DNA of 32,259 bases from a virus, in IMG/VR virus record IMGVR_UViG_3300007639_000009, positions 1 to 32,259 of that record. One strand, given 5' to 3'. This document shows, piece by piece, positions 3,001 to 30,894 of this stretch. Position 1 is the stretch's first letter; every line of letters begins with the position of its first letter. The translations under genes and the position numbers were made by a program. The notes under the pieces were generated by a model. The model was not told the DNA's origin. It worked only from the letters and a program-made list of their open reading frames with translations, and searched no databases.

Positions 3001-6000
3001 CTAACAGACTTATTAATAATTTCTTGTGGTTTGAATACAGGCAGAGCAGGTGTTTTTGGTAAAGTTTTCCCAGACGGAAGAACTACTGGTGCAGTAGGTG
3101 CAGGAATTGACGCTAATTTATTTTTTGCGGCAATTAAATCGTTTACTGTTTTTAAACTTGCCTTGTTCCAATTTTGAAAACCCGCGTCTACATTTGGGTT
3201 TGTTAAAGATTTTAAAAGTTCTGTTCTTCTTTCAATAAGCTCATCAAGATTCATTGATGATGGAAGCTTGTTTACCGGCAACCCTCTTGGGCCGAGTTGT
3301 GGTAGTACCTGCGATCCGGGAGTTAATTCCTTACTAGGATTAACTGGTATAGCTGGGCGATTTTTGTCAGCAGTTTGTTTAGGGGGGCCGCGAGGAGATG
3401 TCCCGCCAGTAGAAGGAGAAGACGGCCCAATCCCCTTGCCACCTGGACCAAATTTGCCGCCTGTGCCGCCTGTAAATGTGTTTCCTACAAAAGTATTATT
3501 TTGAAATATTGAGCCAATAGTTTTTGCAACTTTTGAAAGAGCCCCTTTTGTTCCATCAGCCAAAGTTTTAACACCCTTGGCTGAACTTTTCTCAACAGAA
3601 TCAGTTATTTTCTTTGCAGCTTCCGCAGCAGTTTTAGCTTTAGTACTTTCATTTGACATCAGAGTAGACAACAGCTCAGATGTAGATGGAGCTTGCTCTC
3701 TACGATCCCTTAAAAACTTTTTTGCCATGCCCATCGGACTTGCCAATGTTGATCTACTTTGATTTGGAAGAATATTTGATTGCCTAAGAACATCTAGAGA
3801 AGAAGAATCCAAACCGGATACATCTAAAGGCCTTTTCCCACCTAAACCAAATGGAAGCCGACTTGCCCTGCTTGAGCCTTGAACCAAAAACCCTTGGCTT
3901 CCTGGTAACTGAGTAACAGCTTTTGCGCCTCTAAGTAAATTAGGGTTATTAATAATATCCATCAAGCTAACGGCAGAAACTCTTGCTTTCCCAAACCCAA
4001 GAGTTAATCTCCCTAAAGCTTGAACAACACCACCAAACAAAACTCTAACAGTTCCAAAAGCCAATGTTAAAGGACCAGTAACTGCCATGAGAAGCATAAA
4101 TGCGCCAACAACTTTCTTTACATAAGTTGGCATATCTTGTATAGCTTTTGCAAATTTTTGAAAAAACGGAAGAACAAATTTTACAAGATCATCTATAATG
4201 GGAACAATTGCTACACCCATAGCAACAATTGAAGCTTTGAGTGAATCGTATCTAACCTTTGGAGTATTGCGACTTAACTCCAACTCCTGTTCAGTTATCT
4301 TGGCAGCATAATTCTCAACATCAAAACCCATAGACAGATAAACTTTTGAAAACTCTGTTGCTGTTTCAGAAATAAAGTCAATACTTTTACCGTTTGCTAA
4401 AGCAATCTTTTGCAATTCTGATTGCGCATCAATTTGACCTTGCTTAATCAGTGCGGCCCTACGGGTTAAACTACTATTTGTTGCAGAAATTTGCTCATTA
4501 GCACCACGATGTAGTTTTCCTATATCCTCAATACTGCGTACAGTAATTTGTTCTAACCCCGCAGACTTTAGCCTTAAGTTAACATTTCTTTCAAGAGCTT
4601 GAGCAATTTTGTATTCTTCAGTAACAATTCCTGACGCATAACCTTTTGATTGATCTTGCCCAGGACCTTTTAATGACTCTTGAAATTGCCCCATTTGGTT
4701 TAATGTTGTTGCCATTCTTGGCCCTTGACGGACACCAAACATTCTTGATGCTAATTCAAGAGTACCCTGCTTCCCCTTGGCTTTTTCCAAAGCAAGGAAA
4801 CTATTAGTCAAGTCATTTAAGTTTTCAATACCAATACCAGCTGCATATTTAAAATTAGGTCCAAGTTCCTCATTCAACCCAGCAATTATTTGTGTGTTCT
4901 GTTTTGTTTGAGCAACCATTCTTTGCAAAGAAACTTTTACAGAGTTAGCTGAAGCTCCGACTTGAAAACCGGTTGCAATCATCGGAACAACCATAGCAAT
5001 AGCTTCAGTCATATTTAAACCAAACATAGTTGCAGCAGCAGAAACTTCAGGAAACGCTTCAGCAATGTTTCTTAATGACATAACCGTTTTGTTTTCAACT
5101 ATGTTAAACATTGCCATCTGACCACGAAGCTCCGCCCCTATCTCGGCAGCAACTTGCGCATCGTTAACCTGAACACTTCTACCTAGTTCTCTTCTAACAG
5201 CCAATATATTTTGATACATCGCTGAAACAAATTCTTGCGAAGCGGTAATATCAAGATTACCGAGTTTTTCCATCTCGGCAGTCATTGCTGTCAAGTTGTA
5301 CAACATCTGTTCACTTTCTATTGTTGAATTACTGATCCCGATACCTAACTCAGCAAAATCTCCGGCAATTGACTGAACAAGAACTCTAGACACGCCCCAC
5401 TTAGCAGTAATCTTATCTAAAGATTTTCCAAGCATATCAACTGCGGCTCTAGCTTGTACCTGGCTGGAAACAAACTTACCATTAGCGTCAACGGTAGACA
5501 TGAAGTTATCATTTAAAAGTTTTGTAATTCTAACATTTTGAGTTTCTAATTTACTAAATTGAAAAAACGCTTCCCTCAACCCCATAATAATTGGAGCAGA
5601 AAAATTTCTAGTAAAAAGATACCCTGATTGCTGAGCAGCTGTACCCAGACCCGATACCTTTTTCCCATAATTTATTAATTCATTTCCACGAATTAAACGA
5701 GAAAATGAACTTTGAGCGCTAATAGCGCTATTTAAATGCCCTGTTGTTTGAGCAAAGGCTTGATTGAATTTTGCACTTCCGCTTGCCGCTCTGTTTAAAT
5801 TAGAATATTCTTTATTTAATAATGCTAAACTCTTTCTAGCTTGTTCTATAGAAGCAGCCAGTAAATTATTGTTTTTAGATAAAGAAAAAGTAACTTTTGA
5901 AGCATTAACCGCACCAGTAGTGGTCAGCCCTAATGCTTTATTTAAAGCACTTGTTGAATTACCTAAAGAAACTTGCCTACTTGCTAAACTAGCAATACTA

Positions 6001-6110
6001 TTAGCTAAATTATTTAATTCATTAGCAATTATGGCTGTAGCAGAAGTAGCGTTGTCCGTGACAACGGCATTTATCCTAATAGATTCATCACTTCCGCTAA
6101 TATCAGACAT
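1..6110 (-). CDS. Tail tape measure protein (3' end cut by window edge)
   Basis: This is the tail tape measure protein, which sets tail length and leaves through the tail tube during DNA ejection. The frame is open from ATG 6110-6108 to the window edge, giving 2036 visible codons. The N-terminal 150 residues are Asn/Ser/Ala-rich and helical. Residues about 220-470 resemble the TP901/PhageMin_Tail core, for example MFGLNMTEAIAMVVPMIATG and the later 'LASRMFGVRQGPRMATTL'. A hydrophobic stretch lies near residues 660-700 (VKKVVGAFMLLMAVTGPLTL). A Gly/Pro-rich linker is near residues 880-950, and long Lys/Glu/Ala-rich coiled-coil-like stretches follow between about 1300 and 1650. It sits directly downstream of the gpG/gpGT-like chaperones, the canonical position. 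The stop codon lies outside the window, so the full length is unknown. Confidence 0.93.
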   Translation of the reverse strand, partial: MSDISGSDESIRINAVVTDNATSATAIIANELNNLANSIASLASRQVSLGNSTSALNKALGLTTTGAVNASKVTFSLSKNNNLLAASIEQARKSLALLNKEYSNLNRAASGSAKFNQAFAQTTGHLNSAISAQSSFSRLIRGNELINYGKKVSGLGTAAQQSGYLFTRNFSAPIIMGLREAFFQFSKLETQNVRITKLLNDNFMSTVDANGKFVSSQVQARAAVDMLGKSLDKITAKWGVSRVLVQSIAGDFAELGIGISNSTIESEQMLYNLTAMTAEMEKLGNLDITASQEFVSAMYQNILAVRRELGRSVQVNDAQVAAEIGAELRGQMAMFNIVENKTVMSLRNIAEAFPEVSAAATMFGLNMTEAIAMVVPMIATGFQVGASANSVKVSLQRMVAQTKQNTQIIAGLNEELGPNFKYAAGIGIENLNDLTNSFLALEKAKGKQGTLELASRMFGVRQGPRMATTLNQMGQFQESLKGPGQDQSKGYASGIVTEEYKIAQALERNVNLRLKSAGLEQITVRSIEDIGKLHRGANEQISATNSSLTRRAALIKQGQIDAQSELQKIALANGKSIDFISETATEFSKVYLSMGFDVENYAAKITEQELELSRNTPKVRYDSLKASIVAMGVAIVPIIDDLVKFVLPFFQKFAKAIQDMPTYVKKVVGAFMLLMAVTGPLTLAFGTVRVLFGGVVQALGRLTLGFGKARVSAVSLMDIINNPNLLRGAKAVTQLPGSQGFLVQGSSRASRLPFGLGGKRPLDVSGLDSSSLDVLRQSNILPNQSRSTLASPMGMAKKFLRDRREQAPSTSELLSTLMSNESTKAKTAAEAAKKITDSVEKSSAKGVKTLADGTKGALSKVAKTIGSIFQNNTFVGNTFTGGTGGKFGPGGKGIGPSSPSTGGTSPRGPPKQTADKNRPAIPVNPSKELTPGSQVLPQLGPRGLPVNKLPSSMNLDELIERRTELLKSLTNPNVDAGFQNWNKASLKTVNDLIAAKNKLASIPAPTAPVVLPSGKTLPKTPALPVFKPQEIINKSVSKPVFNIPMGGSGVLGKVSSASQLMALAGVLESSKKDLVEITGKEIAGFYTSFGRAIPEELKDISNLAGGKTFKIPAPTKASIIKNISEGGNLVSKMTVGKGKKAVEEIVALSQKANAIGKLGVPTGIFDGSKQSAGDVRELFANITSQMYPTQTVDDIMEVFNEGQSGKMLPKTNLGLGSNKTIPGKLTLTEFERIVNSRLAQDAEVGLVEKNLNQLLKERQTISDRVKKGKDLSTSQALLMAPDAVTGTAIDTQIRGLESELKQTTEVRRTRIESAIRNAESSGARSITAREGYDLATERAKNEVKPLGGEIAKTKKLPGAATNPDIAKKIQQLEAEKAKRFSEALDRNLLRVAQEHRLTAEELAESAKVVSDREIKKTGRGTSSAPIKRYKAKFDKDGKLIGQTPLTAKQAAAAELREKKVLTLRRLSTTPNPSAELMGDYMRDFGGTEEDLKKEIENFKKADTARKTAQRRMDEVDAQREADKGAPKKRKPKQTSTMLSKASKARQEAKEEAELLAQETKKASKRAVKKADDVAVKLRTDVQKAADIEKIIKQKEEYQRGVTARDALRASKSNRGVRVRRGTIPMGTGEPTPLIASPKRGIVEQRDLIKAEIRKTKYNIKRLAKEAIETAKSAETFNALNGITETIDHSQTQVNKDLRRAQTKLTNLNKRLKAVSPAASQSTARTVPRPRRPNIAFMVPAGDSVPVSGGIPGFDKGPGGILNPVSSMVDSTKRQVVTYKELMLRAINDFEVSAKGNPKEIKAIAAMMRSTLNDVPGAMSGLINSLVPAEQIDEVMKSLKLELDGVNKKTKQSLSKMQKGAAHRFKNIKKMFADDSGAVYGSLDAKTSKGVSSFGEAARAGNMAKQSATAKSIAPYALADVYAKSVRNLGYNAMDASGKAASGVAEMNVGATEASATKYKVQQLLKTKNMKTGAKYSLEELLAESKISQSAADLFKGDISTIQKPIEELNKAAESTKEVITGAAEKIDTVGENLDEA

Positions 6111-6160
6111 AGTTTGTACTATAAATTATCGCACAATAGAGAGAATTAAGCAATGCCGTA

Positions 6161-15555: not shown

Positions 15556-15801
15556 TTATTCTTCTATGAAAATACATTCACCTGGGCAATCTTCAGCCGC
15601 ATCAATAACATCGGCTAGCCTATCGTCTGCGAAAGAAGCCAACCCACTTGCGCCTTCTGGGTTCCCTCGCAGCTTTGAATATACTTTCCCATTCTCTTGA
15701 ACATACGCCAACCCATCCTCCAGCATGATGAACACATCTGGGGCTATCTCTGCACACAGTCCATCGCCAGTACATAAGTCTTGGTCAATCCAAACCTTCA
15801 T
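15556..15801 (-). CDS. Single-cluster ferredoxin
   Basis: An 81-aa ferredoxin, a small soluble electron carrier. Cys10 and Cys16 sit in CTGDGLC and Cys72 and Cys76 in DCPGECIF. Position 13, where a 4Fe-4S protein has the second Cys, is Asp (CxxDxxC). This is known for 3Fe-4S and Asp-ligated 4Fe-4S ferredoxins and common in the ferredoxins that serve actinobacterial P450s. The region 'CAEIAPDVFIMLEDGLAYV' matches that subfamily. It overlaps the nuclease-like gene by one base (TAATG) and ends one base before the 955-aa gene. A partner enzyme is not obvious in the window. The clean cluster ligands argue for a functional gene. Host redox support during infection is an inference. Confidence 0.88.
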   Translation of the reverse strand: MKVWIDQDLCTGDGLCAEIAPDVFIMLEDGLAYVQENGKVYSKLRGNPEGASGLASFADDRLADVIDAAEDCPGECIFIEE

Positions 15802-16205
15802 TACTTCTTTCCATTTCTCTTCTTTAAAAGCGCATCAAAGTCTTTAACTTTTGTTTCGCCCATATAGCCCCACGCATAACCTTCATCAATCAATGTTTGA
15901 TTGATAGATACTTTGTTGTCATCAAGAAATACCCAACCCAAAATACGACCATACTTTTCTGAACTGTCTGGCTTTTCGGTTTTGATAACAATATTTGTTG
16001 CAGCATCAATTGCTTTTTTCAATCTGTCTTTTACTTCCAACCCCAAAACTTTTTCGGCTTTATCTGTTGTACGAGATTCAGGTGTATCAATACCGGCAAG
16101 ACGAACACGTTGTGAATAAGAAATATCAAAACCCAAATCAATGTCAACATCAATCGTGTCCCCGTCAACAACTTTCAAAACTTTTTTTACGCGATACTCG
16201 TACAT
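15801..16205 (-). CDS. Staphylococcal-nuclease-like (thermonuclease) protein
   Basis: A 134-aa single-domain SNase-type nuclease without a signal peptide. It carries the family motifs VVDGDTIDVDI (12-22), RVRLAGIDTPESR (34-46) and KYGRILGWVF (84-93). The catalytic set appears intact: calcium-binding Asp residues (D14/D16 and D40), R36, E43 and R87. It would cleave DNA or RNA near the 5' phosphate in the presence of calcium. Lack of a signal suggests action in the cytoplasm, for instance on host nucleic acid, or packaging in the virion. It overlaps the membrane protein gene upstream and the ferredoxin downstream by one base each, so the three are probably co-translated. Confidence 0.88.
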   Translation of the reverse strand: MYEYRVKKVLKVVDGDTIDVDIDLGFDISYSQRVRLAGIDTPESRTTDKAEKVLGLEVKDRLKKAIDAATNIVIKTEKPDSSEKYGRILGWVFLDDNKVSINQTLIDEGYAWGYMGETKVKDFDALLKKRNGKK

Positions 16206-16731: not shown

Positions 16732-17403
16732 TTATTTTTTAGATAAATACTGCTTAACTTCTGGCAAATACAAAATTTCGCGAAAATCTGTTCTCCCAGC
16801 TTCCCCATGCCAAAAAGTATTAAAAGCCAAACTAACTCTATTTTCCGAAAAAATTTCTGGAACACCGTGTGGTAAGTACGATGGGAACAATAATAGTGAC
16901 CCCTGAGTAGCTGGCACCCACCAGCTCATAGAATTAAATGGATTAAAATCAGCATGTTGAAATGTTGAACTCATTTGTGGGCATGGATTAGTAAACATAA
17001 TTTTATCTTCATCGGAAGATTTTATATAAAAAACTCCACTAAAAATACTGTTTGGATGAGTATGATTTTTTGATCCACCACCAGATGTCGCCGCATTCAA
17101 CCAGCTTTGGGTTATATAAAATTTTGTTTTAGAAGTAATATCCAAAACTGCGTAAGCAAAATGATGTATAGCGTCAGTACAAAATTCTTTAATATTTTGA
17201 AGTTCAGGTTTATCTAGAACGTAATTATTTGCAGAGCCATGGCTGTTTTGATTATTGTAATTATTAGTCGCACTTATATCAATGTCTAGCTCTTTGTTTA
17301 TGCACTCAATTTCTAAATCATTGAGTTCCTCTATGTAGTTATAGCGAACAACCGGTACTGGAAAAAGCCCATTGATTTCGGGCGAATTGTTTACCGAGGA
17401 CAT
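16732..17403 (-). CDS. 2-oxoglutarate/Fe(II) oxygenase (TIGR02466-like)
   Basis: A 223-aa oxygenase of the 2OG-FeII_Oxy_5/TIGR02466 type, known from cyanophages and aquatic bacteria. The sequence shows the family's core: NHTHPNSIFSGVFYI at residues 113-127 (iron ligands likely among H114/H116), GSLLLFPSYLPHGVPE from 168 with H179 as the second His, and R189 in NRVSLAFN, which should bind 2-oxoglutarate. The substrate is unknown. The family uses oxygen and 2-oxoglutarate to hydroxylate proteins or small molecules. It ends a run of three different oxygenases with a sulfotransferase-like gene upstream, and it overlaps the preceding gene by 13 bases. Confidence 0.85.
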   Translation of the reverse strand: MSSVNNSPEINGLFPVPVVRYNYIEELNDLEIECINKELDIDISATNNYNNQNSHGSANNYVLDKPELQNIKEFCTDAIHHFAYAVLDITSKTKFYITQSWLNAATSGGGSKNHTHPNSIFSGVFYIKSSDEDKIMFTNPCPQMSSTFQHADFNPFNSMSWWVPATQGSLLLFPSYLPHGVPEIFSENRVSLAFNTFWHGEAGRTDFREILYLPEVKQYLSKK

Positions 17404-17942
17404 GTGATGTTTATATTAACAACTCTACGCATTATCGCGTCAGTTGGCAACCCTCCAGAATGCTCTATGTCCGCAGAAAATATTAACAAACTGTCTGCTA
17501 TGGATGGGTTCTTTAGAAAAGGAACACGTTTGTCATCATAAAGTGTCGTGCACCCATTAGTGTCATCCATGTAGTAGATAGCCGTATATTGCATATGTTC
17601 TTCATTTTCTGTTTTGGGCACATCCAAGTGCGGCTCCCCAACATACTCTATATTGTGATTAAAAATCATATTGACATGCAAGCTGTCAATTGAAAGAATT
17701 GGTTTAGAAATTATCTCTGAAACTTTCCAAGCAATTGGTAAAAATAAATTTGTATGCGAGGATTGATTAACTCCATCAAAAATCAAGGTGTGTCTGAAAC
17801 CGCTGTTTTTGAATTCGGTAGGCAAAGATCCTGTTTGAGTATTTGCATAAAAAAACCAAGGGAATTGACCAGGTGCTTCTATCTTATCCAGTAGATAATT
17901 TAAAAAATAACTACCAAAAACATTGTCAACTTTTTTATACAT
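17391..17942 (-). CDS. 2OG/Fe(II)-type oxygenase, second member
   Basis: A 183-aa protein with the start chosen at ATG 17942-17940 (MYKKVDNVFGSYFLNYLLDK), five bases after the previous stop, with GGAAG upstream; a longer frame to 17975 overlaps that gene. The double-stranded beta-helix oxygenase signature is visible: EPHLDVP gives H105 and D107, 'YTAIYYMDDTNGCTTLYDD' is the following strand, ADIEHSGG gives H161, and R172/R173 in MRRVVNINI would bind 2-oxoglutarate. It is distinct from its two neighbours in sequence. Hydroxylase function is likely, but the substrate is not visible. Confidence 0.75.
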   Translation of the reverse strand: MYKKVDNVFGSYFLNYLLDKIEAPGQFPWFFYANTQTGSLPTEFKNSGFRHTLIFDGVNQSSHTNLFLPIAWKVSEIISKPILSIDSLHVNMIFNHNIEYVGEPHLDVPKTENEEHMQYTAIYYMDDTNGCTTLYDDKRVPFLKNPSIADSLLIFSADIEHSGGLPTDAIMRRVVNINITCPR

Positions 17943-17947
17943 AACAG

Positions 17948-18598
17948 CTACTTCCAGCGAGGCCCAAGAACCCAACCAACAAGAGACTTGCGGGTTCCCT
18001 TGGTTATTGTACGCACTCTGTGACGAGTACGAGAATCAAACAATATAAGGCATCCTTGTGTTTTCGGCGCAATATAACTCTCACCTGACTCGTTGATAAG
18101 TTCAAGCTCACCACCTTCGTAATCTTCTGGGTTGGAAAGTTGTAACGAAAAAGAAAGTTTTCTGACAAGTTCTTTGTTTTGATTTACAAAATCGTTGCCC
18201 ACACCATCGGTAGAATTACCAACAAATTGTGGTTTATAAGAAGTTGTTAAACCGCCATCGTTATGCCATTCATAATACTCACCCTTGTCATAAATGGTGT
18301 ACTGAATGTGTTCGCTATCCAGTCCTTTTAAATCATACAAAAAATTTTCTCTGTTTGCACGTTCAATATAGTGCCATAAAAAACCACCCATCCAATGGGA
18401 ACTTCTAACCCATGAATGCTTTGCCTTTCGCACTTCGTTGAACCCGTCCCCAACGTAAAGATTCACTGGTGAGGATTTAATATCTTTTTCAAAATCTTTC
18501 AGTAATTCTTTTTCCATAATTTTTATAACTTCATCAGGCAAACCAGTAAAAAACCAAATTGACTGAAATGCCGTATTTGTTCTATCACTCATCATCAT
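17948..18598 (-). CDS. PKHD-type 2OG/Fe(II) oxygenase
   Basis: A 216-aa prolyl-4-hydroxylase-like (2OG-FeII_Oxy_3) enzyme. The iron triad is clear: H112 and D114 in EYYEWHNDGG and H193 in RTRHRVRTITKG, with R203 as the 2-oxoglutarate anchor. 'RKLSFSLQLSNPEDYEGGEL' is the typical central strand of this family, and the C terminus is SLVGWVLGPRW. The family hydroxylates proline or other side chains and, in PiuC-like forms, other substrates. The start lies in ATGATGATG overlapping the sulfotransferase-like stop, so translation is coupled; any of the three ATGs may be used. Confidence 0.88.
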   Translation of the reverse strand: MMMSDRTNTAFQSIWFFTGLPDEVIKIMEKELLKDFEKDIKSSPVNLYVGDGFNEVRKAKHSWVRSSHWMGGFLWHYIERANRENFLYDLKGLDSEHIQYTIYDKGEYYEWHNDGGLTTSYKPQFVGNSTDGVGNDFVNQNKELVRKLSFSLQLSNPEDYEGGELELINESGESYIAPKTQGCLILFDSRTRHRVRTITKGTRKSLVGWVLGPRWK

Positions 18599-19169
18599 CC
18601 ACCATATCTGCTACTAAATCTACAAAAATCTTATACATATTTTCTGCTTCGTCAAATAATTTTTCTTTTTGAATTTCTTCATAAAATTTTGTTTTGCTAT
18701 GTGTATGAGCATGAGGGTGATGAAGCGGATAGGTTGTTTTAACAAATTCATCAATCTCCACCATGTGTACCCACTCGGGATCTTGTAAATTATATTTTTG
18801 AGAATATTCAAACATCGCCCGATTGGGGTGTTTTCTGAGTTGATTTAAGGTTGTACAAAAAATGTTTGATTCTATGGCTTTGTTAGCAAACCTAATATAA
18901 AACTCAAGTCTTTCTGCTGCCGACCAATATCTAGGAGGGTCTGCTTCTTCTCTAAGGTCTGTTGTCATCCAAGAAGAAATGCATTCTAAAGGTTCCCTAA
19001 AAATACAAATTACATTTGGGCATTGCGTCATTGGTGTCAAACGATGCTGAGTAAGAGCAATTTGTAATCCTGGAAAAGCAAAACCTAATGTTGCCTCTAG
19101 GGTTCTTGTCCCAGTTCTTGGATAACCAACAGGTGTTAGTCTTCCCACCTCTGCTGCTCTTCGTTCCAT
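18585..19169 (-). CDS. Sulfotransferase-like P-loop protein
   Basis: A 194-aa protein with the two PAPS-binding signatures of sulfotransferases: VGYPRTGTRT (14-23), the 5'-phosphosulphate loop, and FREPLECISSW (57-67), the 3'-phosphate region with R58 and S65/S66. The middle is helical. A His-rich stretch (YPLHHPHAHTHSK, 147-159) is unusual. The length is below the 250-300 residues of full enzymes, so it may be a compact form. It would move sulphate from PAPS to a hydroxyl group. The start ATG overlaps the preceding MAHYA gene by 34 bases with AGGA upstream; a GTG at 19148 is an alternative. It precedes three oxygenases that could create hydroxyl acceptors. Confidence 0.72.
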   Translation of the reverse strand: MERRAAEVGRLTPVGYPRTGTRTLEATLGFAFPGLQIALTQHRLTPMTQCPNVICIFREPLECISSWMTTDLREEADPPRYWSAAERLEFYIRFANKAIESNIFCTTLNQLRKHPNRAMFEYSQKYNLQDPEWVHMVEIDEFVKTTYPLHHPHAHTHSKTKFYEEIQKEKLFDEAENMYKIFVDLVADMVDDDE

Positions 19170-19516
19170 ACAAAATATCCTACCATATCTGGATGAGCGA
19201 TGGGCGCTTCCCAGTCAACAGTGTCTGCATTAAAAACCCAAGAAGGATAAGGTTTTGGGGGTATAAAAACATCTAATTCTTCGCTGTAAGTATGACCAAT
19301 TGCAGCAAAACGCTTTCGGATATTGTTATTGTACGAAGTTCGTTTACAGATCAAACCTTCAAACCACGGTCTAGAAGAATAAAAATTTTCCCATGCCTCT
19401 GACGAGCCTCCAACAACCGTACCGTCCAAATCAGTCTGGGTTTCGTTCTCATCAATGCCTGTAATAACATCAACAACAATAGAACTACTGCTATCAATAA
19501 GTGCGTAATGTGCCAT
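19136..19516 (-). CDS. MAHYA-family fibre-associated protein, copy A
   Basis: A 126-aa protein with a clear paralogue at 29658-30029. Shared features are MAHYA, the KRTSYN core, 'AAIGHTYSEELDVFIPPKPY' against 'AGIGFKYDATLDAFYAPQPY', PSW-----D---WEAP-A-P, and a WNEE-Q-W terminus. This family is widespread in cyanophage-like and other aquatic phages and often lies next to fibre genes; its role (minor structural protein or fibre assembly) is not established. Here, as in the other copy, it directly follows a glycine-rich adhesin gene, with a TAATG overlap, suggesting the two act together. Confidence 0.7.
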   Translation of the reverse strand: MAHYALIDSSSSIVVDVITGIDENETQTDLDGTVVGGSSEAWENFYSSRPWFEGLICKRTSYNNNIRKRFAAIGHTYSEELDVFIPPKPYPSWVFNADTVDWEAPIAHPDMVGYFVWNEEQQRWED

Positions 19517-20421
19517 TATGCGAAACTTATCAATCCACTACCAGAAGTAAAACTATGTCGTTTAAAACCTCCGCTAGTAGTACCTGCGCTATGACCCAAG
19601 CCAGCGCCAACAGTAATTGTTAAACTGTCTGCGTAGCGAACCATTACAATTCCTGAACCGCCAGCATTGCCTGTTTTCCCACCATATTGCCAAGAACCAC
19701 CACGACCAGCACCACCGCCGCCTCCTGTATTACCACTTGCTGCAGAACCTACAGGTGGACCGTCATATGTTGGGTCATACAAACCTGCACCACCGCCACC
19801 ACCAGCGCCACCACCGCCGACAGAACCACCACAATAGTTACATGGGTTGTTTGGTGCTTGGCTAACACCGCCACCACCGCCACCAAAATATTCGTTACTT
19901 CCTCTAATTGAAGTTAGTGTTCCATTACCACCTGTGTAACCTGAGTTGGTTGCGCCGCTTCCACCACCTGCTTGAAAAGAGCCATTAGCACCAAAATTTA
20001 ATCCAGCATTACTGGTAGCACTACCGCAACACAATCCACCAGAAGCAGTATAAGAAGCAAATTGGCTGGTTCCGCCTGTGGCACCACCGCCACCACCGCC
20101 ACCAACAGTAACTTGGAGTTGCTGACCGCTTGTCACATCCAAAGCACCTAAATTAGCAGTTGCTCCTCCAGAATTTTCAGCACCAACACCACCAGCCCTA
20201 TAACCGCCACCTTGACCACCAGGACCAATTGCGTAATTACCTCCGTAACCAGAAGCACCGCCACCACCAGCAATAAACGCAAACGAAATTGGAAGACCTG
20301 ATGCGCCACCGCGAGAATATGCATCAACCTGAAATGTGCTGTTATTGCGTTTAGTGTTAGGAGCAAGAGAGCCTCCGCCAACAGCTTTACCGCCAGTAGT
20401 GTTTTTCCTAATACGAGACAT
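19516..20421 (-). CDS. Glycine-rich receptor-binding adhesin, copy A
   Basis: A 301-aa protein about one third Gly, one of four paralogues in the window (others at 24908, 25732 and 30091). The N terminus 'FQVDAYSRGGASGLPISFAF' leads into IAGGGGASGYGG, a central run of GGGGG blocks with Cys pairs (CNYC, CC), and a conserved C-terminal module: GSGIVMVRYADSLTITVGAG, then 'SGGFKRHSFTSGSGLIS'. The layout resembles glycine-rich phage tip adhesins built from polyglycine-II helices (as in S16 gp38) and Gly_rich_2-type domains. It is probably the host receptor tip of a fibre. Its neighbours are a MAHYA protein downstream and a 123-aa beta protein upstream. Confidence 0.75.
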   Translation of the reverse strand: MSRIRKNTTGGKAVGGGSLAPNTKRNNSTFQVDAYSRGGASGLPISFAFIAGGGGASGYGGNYAIGPGGQGGGYRAGGVGAENSGGATANLGALDVTSGQQLQVTVGGGGGGGATGGTSQFASYTASGGLCCGSATSNAGLNFGANGSFQAGGGSGATNSGYTGGNGTLTSIRGSNEYFGGGGGGVSQAPNNPCNYCGGSVGGGGAGGGGGAGLYDPTYDGPPVGSAASGNTGGGGGAGRGGSWQYGGKTGNAGGSGIVMVRYADSLTITVGAGLGHSAGTTSGGFKRHSFTSGSGLISFA

Positions 20422-27612: not shown

Positions 27613-29658
27613 TTATGACAATCTGCTTCTTAAATAAGCGCACTCAAGAGCCAAAGCCTCTTCGTAACGGATTCCATACCTATTCCCAGCGGCTTCAAAT
27701 TGTTGCACAACCCCTACACCTTCTTCAATTTTTTCTTCTTGCTCTTCCCACTCATCATAACAAAGAATACCGTATGCAAAAGGATCAACACCTTCAGCCT
27801 CAAATGCTTCCTTAACTCTCTGAGCAACCAACCCGATATGCCATCTAGCCCCGTCACCTTTTTTTACAACAGCATCTTTAAATTTAAACTGCTGATATTC
27901 AACATTACCCCAAGCCCGCAAAACTGCTTCATTGATGTCGCCAATTTGTTCTTTTTCTCTTTCATCAGATGTGTTAATAGTTCCTGTTGTTGCATAAACA
28001 ATTGTCCATCTGCGTGATGGGCCTCCAAGAGTATATTCGTCATCAGTTCTTGGGCGTAAAGTTTGTGTATCAGTATTAGAAGCAAAGAAAGTTACTGTTG
28101 CGGTTCCGTCAGTAGTTGTACCTCCGGTTGCTTGAATTCTTGCATCATAATCGTTTACCGCCTCAGCATTACCTGAAGTATGGAGATCCATATACCAAGT
28201 TGCCGCGGTGTTTTGTTTACCAAGCTCCATTGTTCCATCGGCACGAATAAGTGCTGAACGCTGACTAGAAATATATGCGTCAATAACATTTGTGCCGCCT
28301 GTATAATACAAAGCAGTATCTGCATCATCTACTCTTAAGCCCACAAAACCAGAACCACGAGCTACAAAGAAACTTTGAATTTTATATGTACCAAGATTTA
28401 CAGCATCAAAGCCCCACGCATAATGTGATCCGCCAGTTGCTGCCGTTGATGCTTCCTTATTATCAACAAGACCCAATTCAAAACCAGTCATTGCTGATGC
28501 ATGCGATGAAGCATCCATTAAAACATTTGCATTATGTGCCCACACTTTTGTGAATGGGTTTACATAAGCAGTCGCTGAACCAGATGGTGTTGAAGCAGAC
28601 TGGACTGTGCCGTTTGCCAAATACCAACCTTCAACTGTAATACTTGTACCGTTAGCAGCCCAATCAGTAATAAATCCACTAAACTTTGTCGGACTATGAG
28701 CAGTATCAATAATCATTCCCTTACGCAATAGTTTTATGTTTGCTGCACTGATTGCGGAAGCAGGAACAACTGTTGTTGCCGTATACGTTGCAGCAGCAAG
28801 AGTTAATGTTGGTGGTGGTGCTAATACATCTGCAAAAAAAGAAACAGCATCTCTATCTGTATAGACGGAAATATCTGTTTCATTAGAAACACCTAAAACT
28901 TCAGCAGCACTATTAAAATCAGAACCGCTTGGGTAAAGTCTTACTGCAAAACCTGTTGCACTATCTTCGTTGCCGTAAGGAGCTGACATAATTCTTTGAC
29001 CCTCACGAAGAAGATCTCCATTTAAATTTTCTGGGTTAAGGATTTTTGCTCCTCTATCTAATACCCAAACAACTTCTCTACCACCGGTATCTACAAGACT
29101 TGAAAGCACATAGTTGCCATCAGGAACAGTAACAAAAACACAATTAGCTCTTAAAATTCCATTATCAGTATATGTAACAGCACCAGTTCTTGCTTGTGCT
29201 GCATTAGAGAAAGCTGTTGTGTTGTCAGTAACACCGTCACCAACAGCGCTATAATCAGAAACAGAAACAGGCAAAGATGTTTTGCTTACTTTAGCGTTGA
29301 TTTGGGTTTGAATAGCCGAAGTAACACCATCAAGATAACTAATTTCAGTGTTTGAAACATTACCAACAGAAGTAGTACTTGGCAATACAACTGTTCCAGT
29401 AAATGTTGGAGAAGCAATATTGGCAGGTGTATAGCCTATGTTGGTTACAGCAGCGCCAGAGGCGATCTTTGCAGAAGTAACAGCACCAGTAGCAAGTTTT
29501 GCTGTTGAAACAGAACCATCTGTAATATCATTTGAAGCAATAGTATTTGATGCTACAGAACCATTTAATGTCCAAGCACTCCCATCCCATGAATAAATTC
29601 GGGAATTGACAGTATATACTTGATCAAGGGTTGGTGAGTCTGGAAAATCTATAGCCAT
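27613..29658 (-). CDS. Tail spike with pectate-lyase-like domain and S74 self-cleaving chaperone
   Basis: A 681-aa spike. Residues 1-33 are the shared W-GS-W module (AIDFPDSPTLDQ, YSWDGSAWTLNG), then short TAKLATGAVTSAKI shaft repeats. DYSAVGDGVTDNTTAFSNA (135-153) is the hallmark of pectate_lyase_3/beta-helix spikes. The middle is a long beta-rich region with Ala/Thr strands. Residues about 555-681 are a peptidase S74 intramolecular chaperone: S564 and K569 in TSDEREK fit the Ser/Lys self-cleavage dyad, and 'WHIGLVAQRVKEAFEAEGVD' is the usual second motif. The chaperone guides trimer folding and is then removed. The beta-helix may bind or cut a surface polysaccharide; catalytic residues were not identified. 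It overlaps the upstream stop (TAATG). Confidence 0.87.
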   Translation of the reverse strand: MAIDFPDSPTLDQVYTVNSRIYSWDGSAWTLNGSVASNTIASNDITDGSVSTAKLATGAVTSAKIASGAAVTNIGYTPANIASPTFTGTVVLPSTTSVGNVSNTEISYLDGVTSAIQTQINAKVSKTSLPVSVSDYSAVGDGVTDNTTAFSNAAQARTGAVTYTDNGILRANCVFVTVPDGNYVLSSLVDTGGREVVWVLDRGAKILNPENLNGDLLREGQRIMSAPYGNEDSATGFAVRLYPSGSDFNSAAEVLGVSNETDISVYTDRDAVSFFADVLAPPPTLTLAAATYTATTVVPASAISAANIKLLRKGMIIDTAHSPTKFSGFITDWAANGTSITVEGWYLANGTVQSASTPSGSATAYVNPFTKVWAHNANVLMDASSHASAMTGFELGLVDNKEASTAATGGSHYAWGFDAVNLGTYKIQSFFVARGSGFVGLRVDDADTALYYTGGTNVIDAYISSQRSALIRADGTMELGKQNTAATWYMDLHTSGNAEAVNDYDARIQATGGTTTDGTATVTFFASNTDTQTLRPRTDDEYTLGGPSRRWTIVYATTGTINTSDEREKEQIGDINEAVLRAWGNVEYQQFKFKDAVVKKGDGARWHIGLVAQRVKEAFEAEGVDPFAYGILCYDEWEEQEEKIEEGVGVVQQFEAAGNRYGIRYEEALALECAYLRSRLS

Positions 29659-30029
29659 TAGATTTCAATTTTATCCCAATTTTGGTTCTCTTCATTCCAA
29701 GAGTACGCGCCCTCCCCTGATGGGTAAGCAACAGGTGCTTCCCAAACACAGGTGTCTTCATCAAGAATCCACGATGGATATGGTTGCGGGGCATAGAAAG
29801 CGTCTAATGTTGCATCGTACTTAAAGCCAATGCCTGCATAGTTTTTACGATATGGGGTACCACCATTGTTGTGTTGACCACCATAAGTGTTGTATGAGGT
29901 GCGTTTGCATGTTTGACCACGAAACTCCCCATACCATTGCTCCCAATCAATACCGTCTTCACCCTCGTTTTTACCAACGATGACTTCGGTAACAATATTT
30001 TCGGGATCTAGAAATGCATAATGTGCCAT
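29658..30029 (-). CDS. MAHYA-family fibre-associated protein, copy B
   Basis: A 123-aa paralogue of 19136-19516, sharing MAHYA, CKRTSYN, AGIG--Y---LD-F-AP-PYPSW, D---WEAP-AYP and WNEE-Q-W. It has a GGAGG ribosome site. It follows a glycine-rich adhesin gene (30091), as copy A follows another, and precedes the S74 spike. Consistent pairing suggests a role in assembly or attachment of the adhesin; the family's function is not established. Confidence 0.7.
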   Translation of the reverse strand: MAHYAFLDPENIVTEVIVGKNEGEDGIDWEQWYGEFRGQTCKRTSYNTYGGQHNNGGTPYRKNYAGIGFKYDATLDAFYAPQPYPSWILDEDTCVWEAPVAYPSGEGAYSWNEENQNWDKIEI

Positions 30030-30090: not shown

Positions 30091-30894
30091 TTATGCCCAA
30101 CTTACGTTTCCTGTGCCAGCGGTAAGTGTTGTTGTTTTAAAACCCCCAGATGGAGCCGCTGTCGTACCTGTTAAACCTGCACCGATAGTAATCGTCTTTG
30201 AATCTGGATATGTCAAAATAACTACACCTATAGAGCCATTACCTCCTCCAGCAGTGGGGGTCTGACATGATGGACCACCAGCACCACCGTTGCCTTTTCC
30301 TGAAGCAGACGCTCCTGTTTGGCTATTCGGACCTGCAGATGCTCCTGCTCCGTAAGTTGTTGTTCCATTACCATTTCTTAAACCATTATGTCCACCTGCA
30401 TTGTTGTAGTCGCCACTTGTATATGCTGCAGTTTGTCCAACATAATTCGTAGTAACGCTTACTGACCCAGTAGTAACATTTGTCCCACCGATTCCACTCG
30501 CTCCAAAACTCAGTGAGTTACCACCTTGCCCGCCACCAGCAGAAGATGAGGAAAAAATAGAGTCCCCTCCTTTTCCAACAGTTCTATGGTCTGAGTTGTT
30601 ACAGGCAGTTTGCCCTGCCCCAGCAACACCAACAGTTGTTGAATAATTCACAGAATCTGCTACTAAAAAATCTGCAACTAAATAGCCTCCGCCACTACCA
30701 CCGCCAGCCCATTGTGAATTACCAGTACCACCGCCTCCACCGCCGCCCAACAAAGTTACTGTTGCATTAAAAGGAACGTTTGGCCAGTTGCTTGCACCTT
30801 TTTCTCTTTGTTGGTCACGGATAGCCCAAATACCAGACGCAGCAGAAGTACTTACCGTCTTCTTCCCTCCGATAATTCCGCCGTTAGAACGCAT
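30091..30894 (-). CDS. Glycine-rich receptor-binding adhesin, copy D
   Basis: A 267-aa glycine-rich paralogue, the most diverged. The N terminus MRSNGGIIGGKKTVSTSAAS is followed by SNWPNVPFNATVTLLGGGGG and then glycine-rich blocks rich in Ser, Thr and Asn. The C-terminal module GVVILTYPDSKTITIGAGLT and 'SGGFKTTTLTAGTGNVSW' matches copies A-C, with Tyr-Pro replacing Arg-Tyr. It overlaps the 117-aa beta gene by one base and is followed by MAHYA copy B. This is the third copy of the order beta protein, glycine-rich adhesin. Confidence 0.72.
   Translation of the reverse strand: MRSNGGIIGGKKTVSTSAASGIWAIRDQQREKGASNWPNVPFNATVTLLGGGGGGGTGNSQWAGGGSGGGYLVADFLVADSVNYSTTVGVAGAGQTACNNSDHRTVGKGGDSIFSSSSAGGGQGGNSLSFGASGIGGTNVTTGSVSVTTNYVGQTAAYTSGDYNNAGGHNGLRNGNGTTTYGAGASAGPNSQTGASASGKGNGGAGGPSCQTPTAGGGNGSIGVVILTYPDSKTITIGAGLTGTTAAPSGGFKTTTLTAGTGNVSWA

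Follow-up and report, generated by a model that had tools for sequence, protein, structure and literature searches.

A 32,259-base IMG/VR virus record (IMGVR_UViG_3300007639_000009; the whole of this stretch is called the window, and all positions refer to it) raises the question of why a phage would carry, directly behind a gene pair for a Gly-rich putative adhesin and a MAHYA-type protein, a sulfotransferase-like gene and three genes for 2OG/Fe(II) oxygenases. The original prediction had answered with a two-step modification pathway, in which the oxygenases create hydroxyls that the sulfotransferase then uses as acceptors, on the fibres themselves or on host surface glycans. The main genes of the window all lie on the - strand, and in the direction of transcription the order is Gly-rich, MAHYA, sulfotransferase-like, then the PKHD-like, second and third oxygenases (Table 1).

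Table 1. Coordinates of the enzyme genes, the fibre-cassette genes and related features of the window.
Feature	Position	Strand	Evidence and remarks
Gly-rich putative adhesin, 301 aa, 32% Gly	19516..20421	-	Composition; weak phrog_2295; within run of tail-fibre genes
MAHYA protein (phrog_7759), 126 aa	19136..19516	-	phrog_7759, 5.3e-34
Sulfotransferase-fold protein (predicted), 194 aa, first enzyme gene	18585..19169	-	AlphaFold2, Foldseek, VIA-align; starts inside MAHYA gene, 34 nt overlap
PKHD-like 2OG/Fe(II) oxygenase, 216 aa, HND/H/R	17948..18598	-	PF13640, phrog_61
2OG/Fe(II) oxygenase-like (second), 183 aa from likely ATG, HLD/H/R	17391..17942	-	phrog_274, sub-cut-off PF13640, motif positions
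PF13759-type 2OG/Fe(II) oxygenase (third), 223 aa, HTH/H/R	16732..17403	-	PF13759, phrog_81
PA14-domain Thr-rich (mucin-like) protein, 955 aa	12687..15554	-	PF07691, 7.5e-12; hydrophobic C-terminal segments; downstream of set
Second MAHYA copy	29658..30029	-	53% identical to first; behind another Gly-rich gene (30091-30894)

Four consecutive - strand open reading frames were found as predicted (16732-17403, 17391-17975, 17948-18598 and 18585-19169), and their position directly after the MAHYA and Gly-rich genes of the fibre cassette was likewise confirmed. All four are kept in IMG/VR relatives at 74-100% identity, indicating that they are not chance reading frames. The genes had also been described as overlapping, which holds at the other junctions (14, 13 and 34 nt) but not between the second oxygenase and the PKHD-like gene. 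Conservation of the second oxygenase with phage locus L005 begins at the ATG at 17942 rather than at the TTG at 17975, suggesting that the TTG start is probably wrong and the ATG the true one, in which case the gene would begin 5 nt after the PKHD stop without overlap. Just downstream of the oxygenases lies a 4Fe-4S ferredoxin gene (15556-15801; PF13459, 5e-17), whose protein is 100% identical in the relatives covering the region, and the same gene run includes a staphylococcal-nuclease-like protein (15801-16205; PF00565, 5.3e-15; phrog_452).

The sulfotransferase-like protein has no Pfam or PHROG match and no meaningful sequence match in the PDB. It did not match PF13469 (Sulfotransfer_3, curated cut-off 27 bits), and a distant homologue in L008 matches that family at 5.2e-5 and 24.0 bits, under the cut-off. 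Searches of a phage collection with the protein and of 84,980 prokaryote genomes with its family returned no match and no relative, respectively, a sequence profile of the family found no sulfotransferase in the PDB, and when the window family (A3) was set against the classic phage sulfotransferase family (A4) profile to profile, the 3'-PB segment alone aligned, at a probability of 21%. The AlphaFold2 model (pLDDT 74.7, pTM 0.74) found SULT1C3, SULT2A1, StaL and TPST2 as its best solved matches in Foldseek (top E 1.4e-3, probability 1.00), and upon re-alignment with VIA-align 50 of the 50 best entries were sulfotransferases (Z 8.6-10.2 over 164-179 residues). By its predicted structure, the window protein is thus a member of the PAPS sulfotransferase superfamily at the level of fold. 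SULT1C3, TPST2 and heparan sulfate 2-O-sulfotransferase tie in the structural match, so the fold does not reveal the acceptor.

The cofactor motifs point in the same direction. The protein contains a PSB-type loop, GYPRTGTRTLEA, with R18, and a 3'-PB-type segment, VICIFREPLECISSWM, with R58 and S66 at the spacing of 8 found in SULTs; the 5'-phosphosulfate loop pattern (PxxGTxxL, K or R) reads PRTGTRTL in the window and PRCGTTYL in L008. In a nine-row alignment of the window protein with IMG/VR relatives at 83-100% and at 32-33% identity, R58 and S66 are invariant throughout, and the PSB loop, the 3'-PB Arg and Ser and the QHR of a TQHR motif are invariant across the two clades, which are about 32% identical; the PAPS-binding residues, whose loss would have spoken against the original prediction, are therefore retained. 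H42 in TQHR is a candidate catalytic base by sequence order only. Compared to known PAPS-dependent sulfotransferases (PF13469, PF00685; SULT1C3, TPST2, HS 2-O-ST, StaL), the window protein shares, by prediction, their fold along almost its full length as well as the PSB loop and the equally spaced 3'-PB Arg and Ser, but it is shorter (194 aa versus about 250-300), lacks a Pfam match and is encoded in a phage fibre cassette. The assignment as a putative sulfotransferase rests on fold and motifs, the protein itself matching no Pfam family, and it would be expected to be catalytically active with host PAPS. No APS kinase was found in the six phage records searched, implying that PAPS would come from the host.

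The predicted enzyme classes were borne out for all four proteins by fold and motifs for the sulfotransferase-like one and by Pfam/PHROG matches and motifs for the oxygenases. The PKHD-like protein matches PF13640 (1.7e-12, 48.6 bits against a cut-off of 27) and phrog_61 (5.5e-35) with HND, H and R present, is related over its C-terminal part to the PKHD hydroxylase PiuC (1.2e-5), and is 56% identical to proteins of the cyanophages S-SM2 and Bellamy. The third oxygenase matches PF13759 (1.9e-18, 67.2 bits against 27) and phrog_81 (9.1e-39), has solved relatives in 3bvc and 2rg4, and carries HTH in place of HxD/E at the metal site, followed by H and R. The second reaches PF13640 at 7.6e-4 and 20.8 bits, below the cut-off of 27, with HLD, H and R present, and is, judging by sequence, 2OG-like without being filed in that family. 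Its best PHROG match, phrog_274 (1.4e-27), bears the label 'DNA endonuclease V'. This label is probably wrong, given that cyanophage proteins labelled 'DNA endonuclease' score as 2OG oxygenases (phrog_61, 1.2e-18), and the 'DNA endonuclease' and 'DNA endonuclease V' labels of many cyanophage records are probably wrong as well. Besides the window gene, the cyanophage loci L092:7782-8300 and L093:7618-8133 illustrate how these two families, phrog_274 and phrog_2297 ('DNA endonuclease'), give 2OG/Fe(II) oxygenase scores.

A gene for a MAHYA-type protein after one for a Gly-rich putative adhesin is a frequent arrangement in phages, present in most of about 80 loci fetched with MAHYA. Gly-rich segments have been reported in the S16/T2-type fibre-tip adhesin gp38 (PMC12892980), which the window protein resembles in composition only. 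The AlphaFold2 model of MAHYA (pLDDT 91) gave no match with E under 0.001 among solved structures, and a profile search of the PDB was empty. Its best structural likeness, a weak N-terminal one, is to the Mu tail-fibre assembly chaperone Tfa (Z 2.7), which likewise lies directly behind a fibre-like gene; this likeness is too weak for assignment, and MAHYA is possibly a partner of the Gly-rich protein acting as a fibre assembly factor. The slot directly behind MAHYA, occupied by the sulfotransferase gene in the window, holds GT2 (with TPR) or GT4 glycosyltransferases in L020 (5490-7229), L042 (414-1478) and L056 (447-1508), and oxygenases in L071. Relatives of the PKHD-like protein are frequent in T4-like cyanophages (332 phage records, with 56% as the best identity). 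The 2OG clusters of such phages belong to the same families as the window oxygenases (phrog_61, phrog_81, phrog_274, phrog_2297) and adjoin tail-fibre genes in S-SM2 and Bellamy; in S-SSM5 and S-CAM8, five 2OG genes stand together with MAHYA and a Gly-rich gene. These clusters differ from the window in that a sulfotransferase is absent.

Gene order was then compared among relatives. The linkage of the four genes is conserved, as the original prediction anticipated, in all close relatives (≥83% identity) covering the region, which keep the order MAHYA-ST-2OG-2OG(-2OG), with one extra PF13759-type gene in L003 and L005 and other genes replacing the third oxygenase in L006. In L008-L011, which hold the distant homologues (31-33% identity), the sulfotransferase likewise begins at MAHYA, but different genes come after it, none of them an oxygenase, the PF13640 gene of the L008 phage lying about 25 kb away; the link to MAHYA is therefore deeper than the link to the oxygenases. 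Small sulfotransferases of the window type come after MAHYA in L008-L011, L031 and L091. The L005 phage carries a second module at 3593-6159, comprising a Gly-rich gene, a classic PF13469 sulfotransferase, MAHYA and an Asp/Asn beta-hydroxylase (PF05118), and through the L005 protein at 4444-5214, phrog_27463 ('unknown function') can be identified as a PF13469 sulfotransferase family (1.3e-50 and 1.4e-17).

A survey with the PF13469-type phage family yielded 78 sulfotransferases. MAHYA lay within two genes of 51 of the 78, a rate biased upward because three of the five survey seeds came from MAHYA loci. When the sequences were clustered at 70% identity, 24 of 43 clusters had MAHYA next to the sulfotransferase, compared with 4.4% for other genes of the same loci, a value that 0 of 20000 simulations reached; clustering at 50% identity gave 6 of 14 (control 3.0%). 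A tree of 80 sulfotransferases requires at least 14 changes among three states (gene ahead of MAHYA, gene behind it, MAHYA absent), mostly by swaps within a single large linked clade in which adjacency persists (quick tree method, some long branches). An unselected check was provided by the few and partly redundant sulfotransferases of PKHD-fetched loci (two in L191, the others in L183, L200 and L204): each comes after a Gly-rich gene, with or without MAHYA in between, and one of those in L191 belongs to a Gly-rich-ST-2OG-PKHD block. Sulfotransferases of several kinds thus recur beside the fibre pair in many other aquatic phages, and a place at the fibre cassette is common to several lineages of phage sulfotransferases. 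Among the independently seeded cyanophage and single-cell-virus sulfotransferases, scanned with a narrower alignment because a diverse one was too variable, adjacency to MAHYA or a Gly-rich gene was seen in 0 of 23 clusters; those of cyanophages and OM43 phages (S-SKS1, S-SRM01, S-SCSM1) are phage-encoded like the window gene but differ in being 260-280 aa long, PF13469-type and not MAHYA-linked. A sulfotransferase adjoins MAHYA in 4 of the approximately 80 MAHYA-fetched loci, and the fibre cassette works without one in most phages. Cyanophage-type sulfotransferases in L251, L252 and L094 lie near phrog_19111 proteins instead of MAHYA, possibly another family of surface or fibre proteins.

We tentatively prefer to read the set as a block of accessory enzymes that closes the fibre cassette at its 3' end and would decorate the fibre/adhesin module. 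This reading builds on the gene content, the predicted sulfotransferase fold, the PAPS-type and 2OG motifs and the recurrent linkage of sulfotransferase and fibre pair, all directly supported, and takes the fibre as the presumed acceptor. The glycosyltransferases and oxygenases that fill the slot behind MAHYA elsewhere, and the gene groups of S-SSM5 and S-CAM8, also speak for it. Against it stand the unlinked cyanophage-type clade, the many cassettes that have no sulfotransferase, the unchanged Ser and Thr contents of neighbouring Gly-rich proteins and the oxygenases of PKHD-fetched loci, which adjoin MAHYA no more often than control. The leading gene would code for a PAPS-dependent sulfotransferase of minimal size, and the other three for 2OG/Fe(II) hydroxylases that were acquired separately. 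All would be produced during infection alongside the Gly-rich adhesin and its partner MAHYA. The module would receive sulfate on side chains that bear hydroxyls or on sugars attached to it, and hydroxyls on its side chains, and this decoration would alter its charge, stability or receptor binding; nothing in this makes the sulfotransferase dependent on the oxygenases. Published work counts phage sulfotransferases among the auxiliary metabolic genes and calls their function unclear (PMC10580990), and the open-access literature searched yielded no paper that places such a gene at phage fibre genes. The recurrent link to the fibre pair offers a concrete substrate hypothesis, the modification of phage adhesins, which, if true, would give phages a means of varying receptor binding in addition to changes in the adhesin sequence, and some of the genes called 'auxiliary metabolic' would then serve virion maturation. 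A bolder generalization, which we regard as rather unlikely, is that aquatic phages keep a swappable 'decoration slot' beside the Gly-rich adhesin-MAHYA pair, in which sulfotransferases, hydroxylases or glycosyltransferases modify the virion's receptor-binding fibres, fibre sulfation diversifying host binding.

Two serious rivals to fibre decoration were considered. The sulfotransferase, and perhaps the oxygenases, could act late in infection on glycans or proteins of the host surface, hiding receptors so that superinfection is blocked or progeny are freed, with phages swapping an adhesin and its matching surface-modifier together. Bacterial polysaccharides are common sulfate acceptors, sulfotransferases and glycosyltransferases share the slot behind MAHYA, and the S-SRM01 sulfotransferase is found among glycosyltransferase and nucleotide-sugar genes, all of which would fit. 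We nonetheless consider this account unlikely, since the genes stand in a structural run and overlap a fibre-cassette gene, such that their products should be made with virion parts, and an informal look at the four proteins noticed no signal peptide or membrane anchor.

Slightly more doubtful is a reading in which unrelated genes simply collect at an insertion hotspot, the fibre end of the operon, the sulfotransferase and the 2OG oxygenases acting separately on host metabolism, for example by shifting 2-oxoglutarate levels or affecting DNA repair, as work on cyanophages has suggested. Cyanophage 2OG oxygenases are indeed usually ascribed to host metabolism or DNA repair (PMC3037559, PMC9602691, PMC2984593), one sulfotransferase clade is located elsewhere, and the oxygenases of PKHD-fetched loci adjoined MAHYA in 1 of 22 clusters, not above control. 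A hotspot leaves unexplained both the repeated adjacency of sulfotransferase and MAHYA in changing order and the several kinds of transferase in one slot.

The two-step pathway of the original prediction is very improbable despite the strict gene order in all relatives covering the block, the independent block in L191 and the sulfotransferases near Asp/Asn hydroxylases in L005 and L191, given that linkage of sulfotransferase and oxygenase is not obligate, as seen in the distant homologues and in the 46 of 51 MAHYA-linked sulfotransferases with no oxygenase inside four genes (5 of 51 have one), and that hydroxyls are already available on Ser, Thr, Tyr and sugars.

Composition tests of Gly-rich and Thr-rich proteins gave no sequence signal identifying an acceptor. 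The Ser and Thr contents of Gly-rich proteins near sulfotransferases were no different, and Tyr was marginal (p = 0.058). An excess of Pro in Gly-rich proteins near oxygenases, a candidate signal of prolyl hydroxylation (p = 2.8e-14 overall), vanished within lineage (0.081 versus 0.075, p = 0.18) and was rejected as a lineage effect, and collagen-like Gly-x-y fibres were dismissed as hydroxylation targets, long triplet runs occurring in only 5 of 273 Gly-rich ORFs. A Thr-rich protein as acceptor (12 of 48 versus 8 of 74 loci, p = 0.047, by a statistic that ignores relatedness) was also too weak to retain, leaving the Thr-rich PA14 protein of the window as a weak rival acceptor. Other phages repeatedly encode similar Thr-rich proteins after a MAHYA or sulfotransferase gene.
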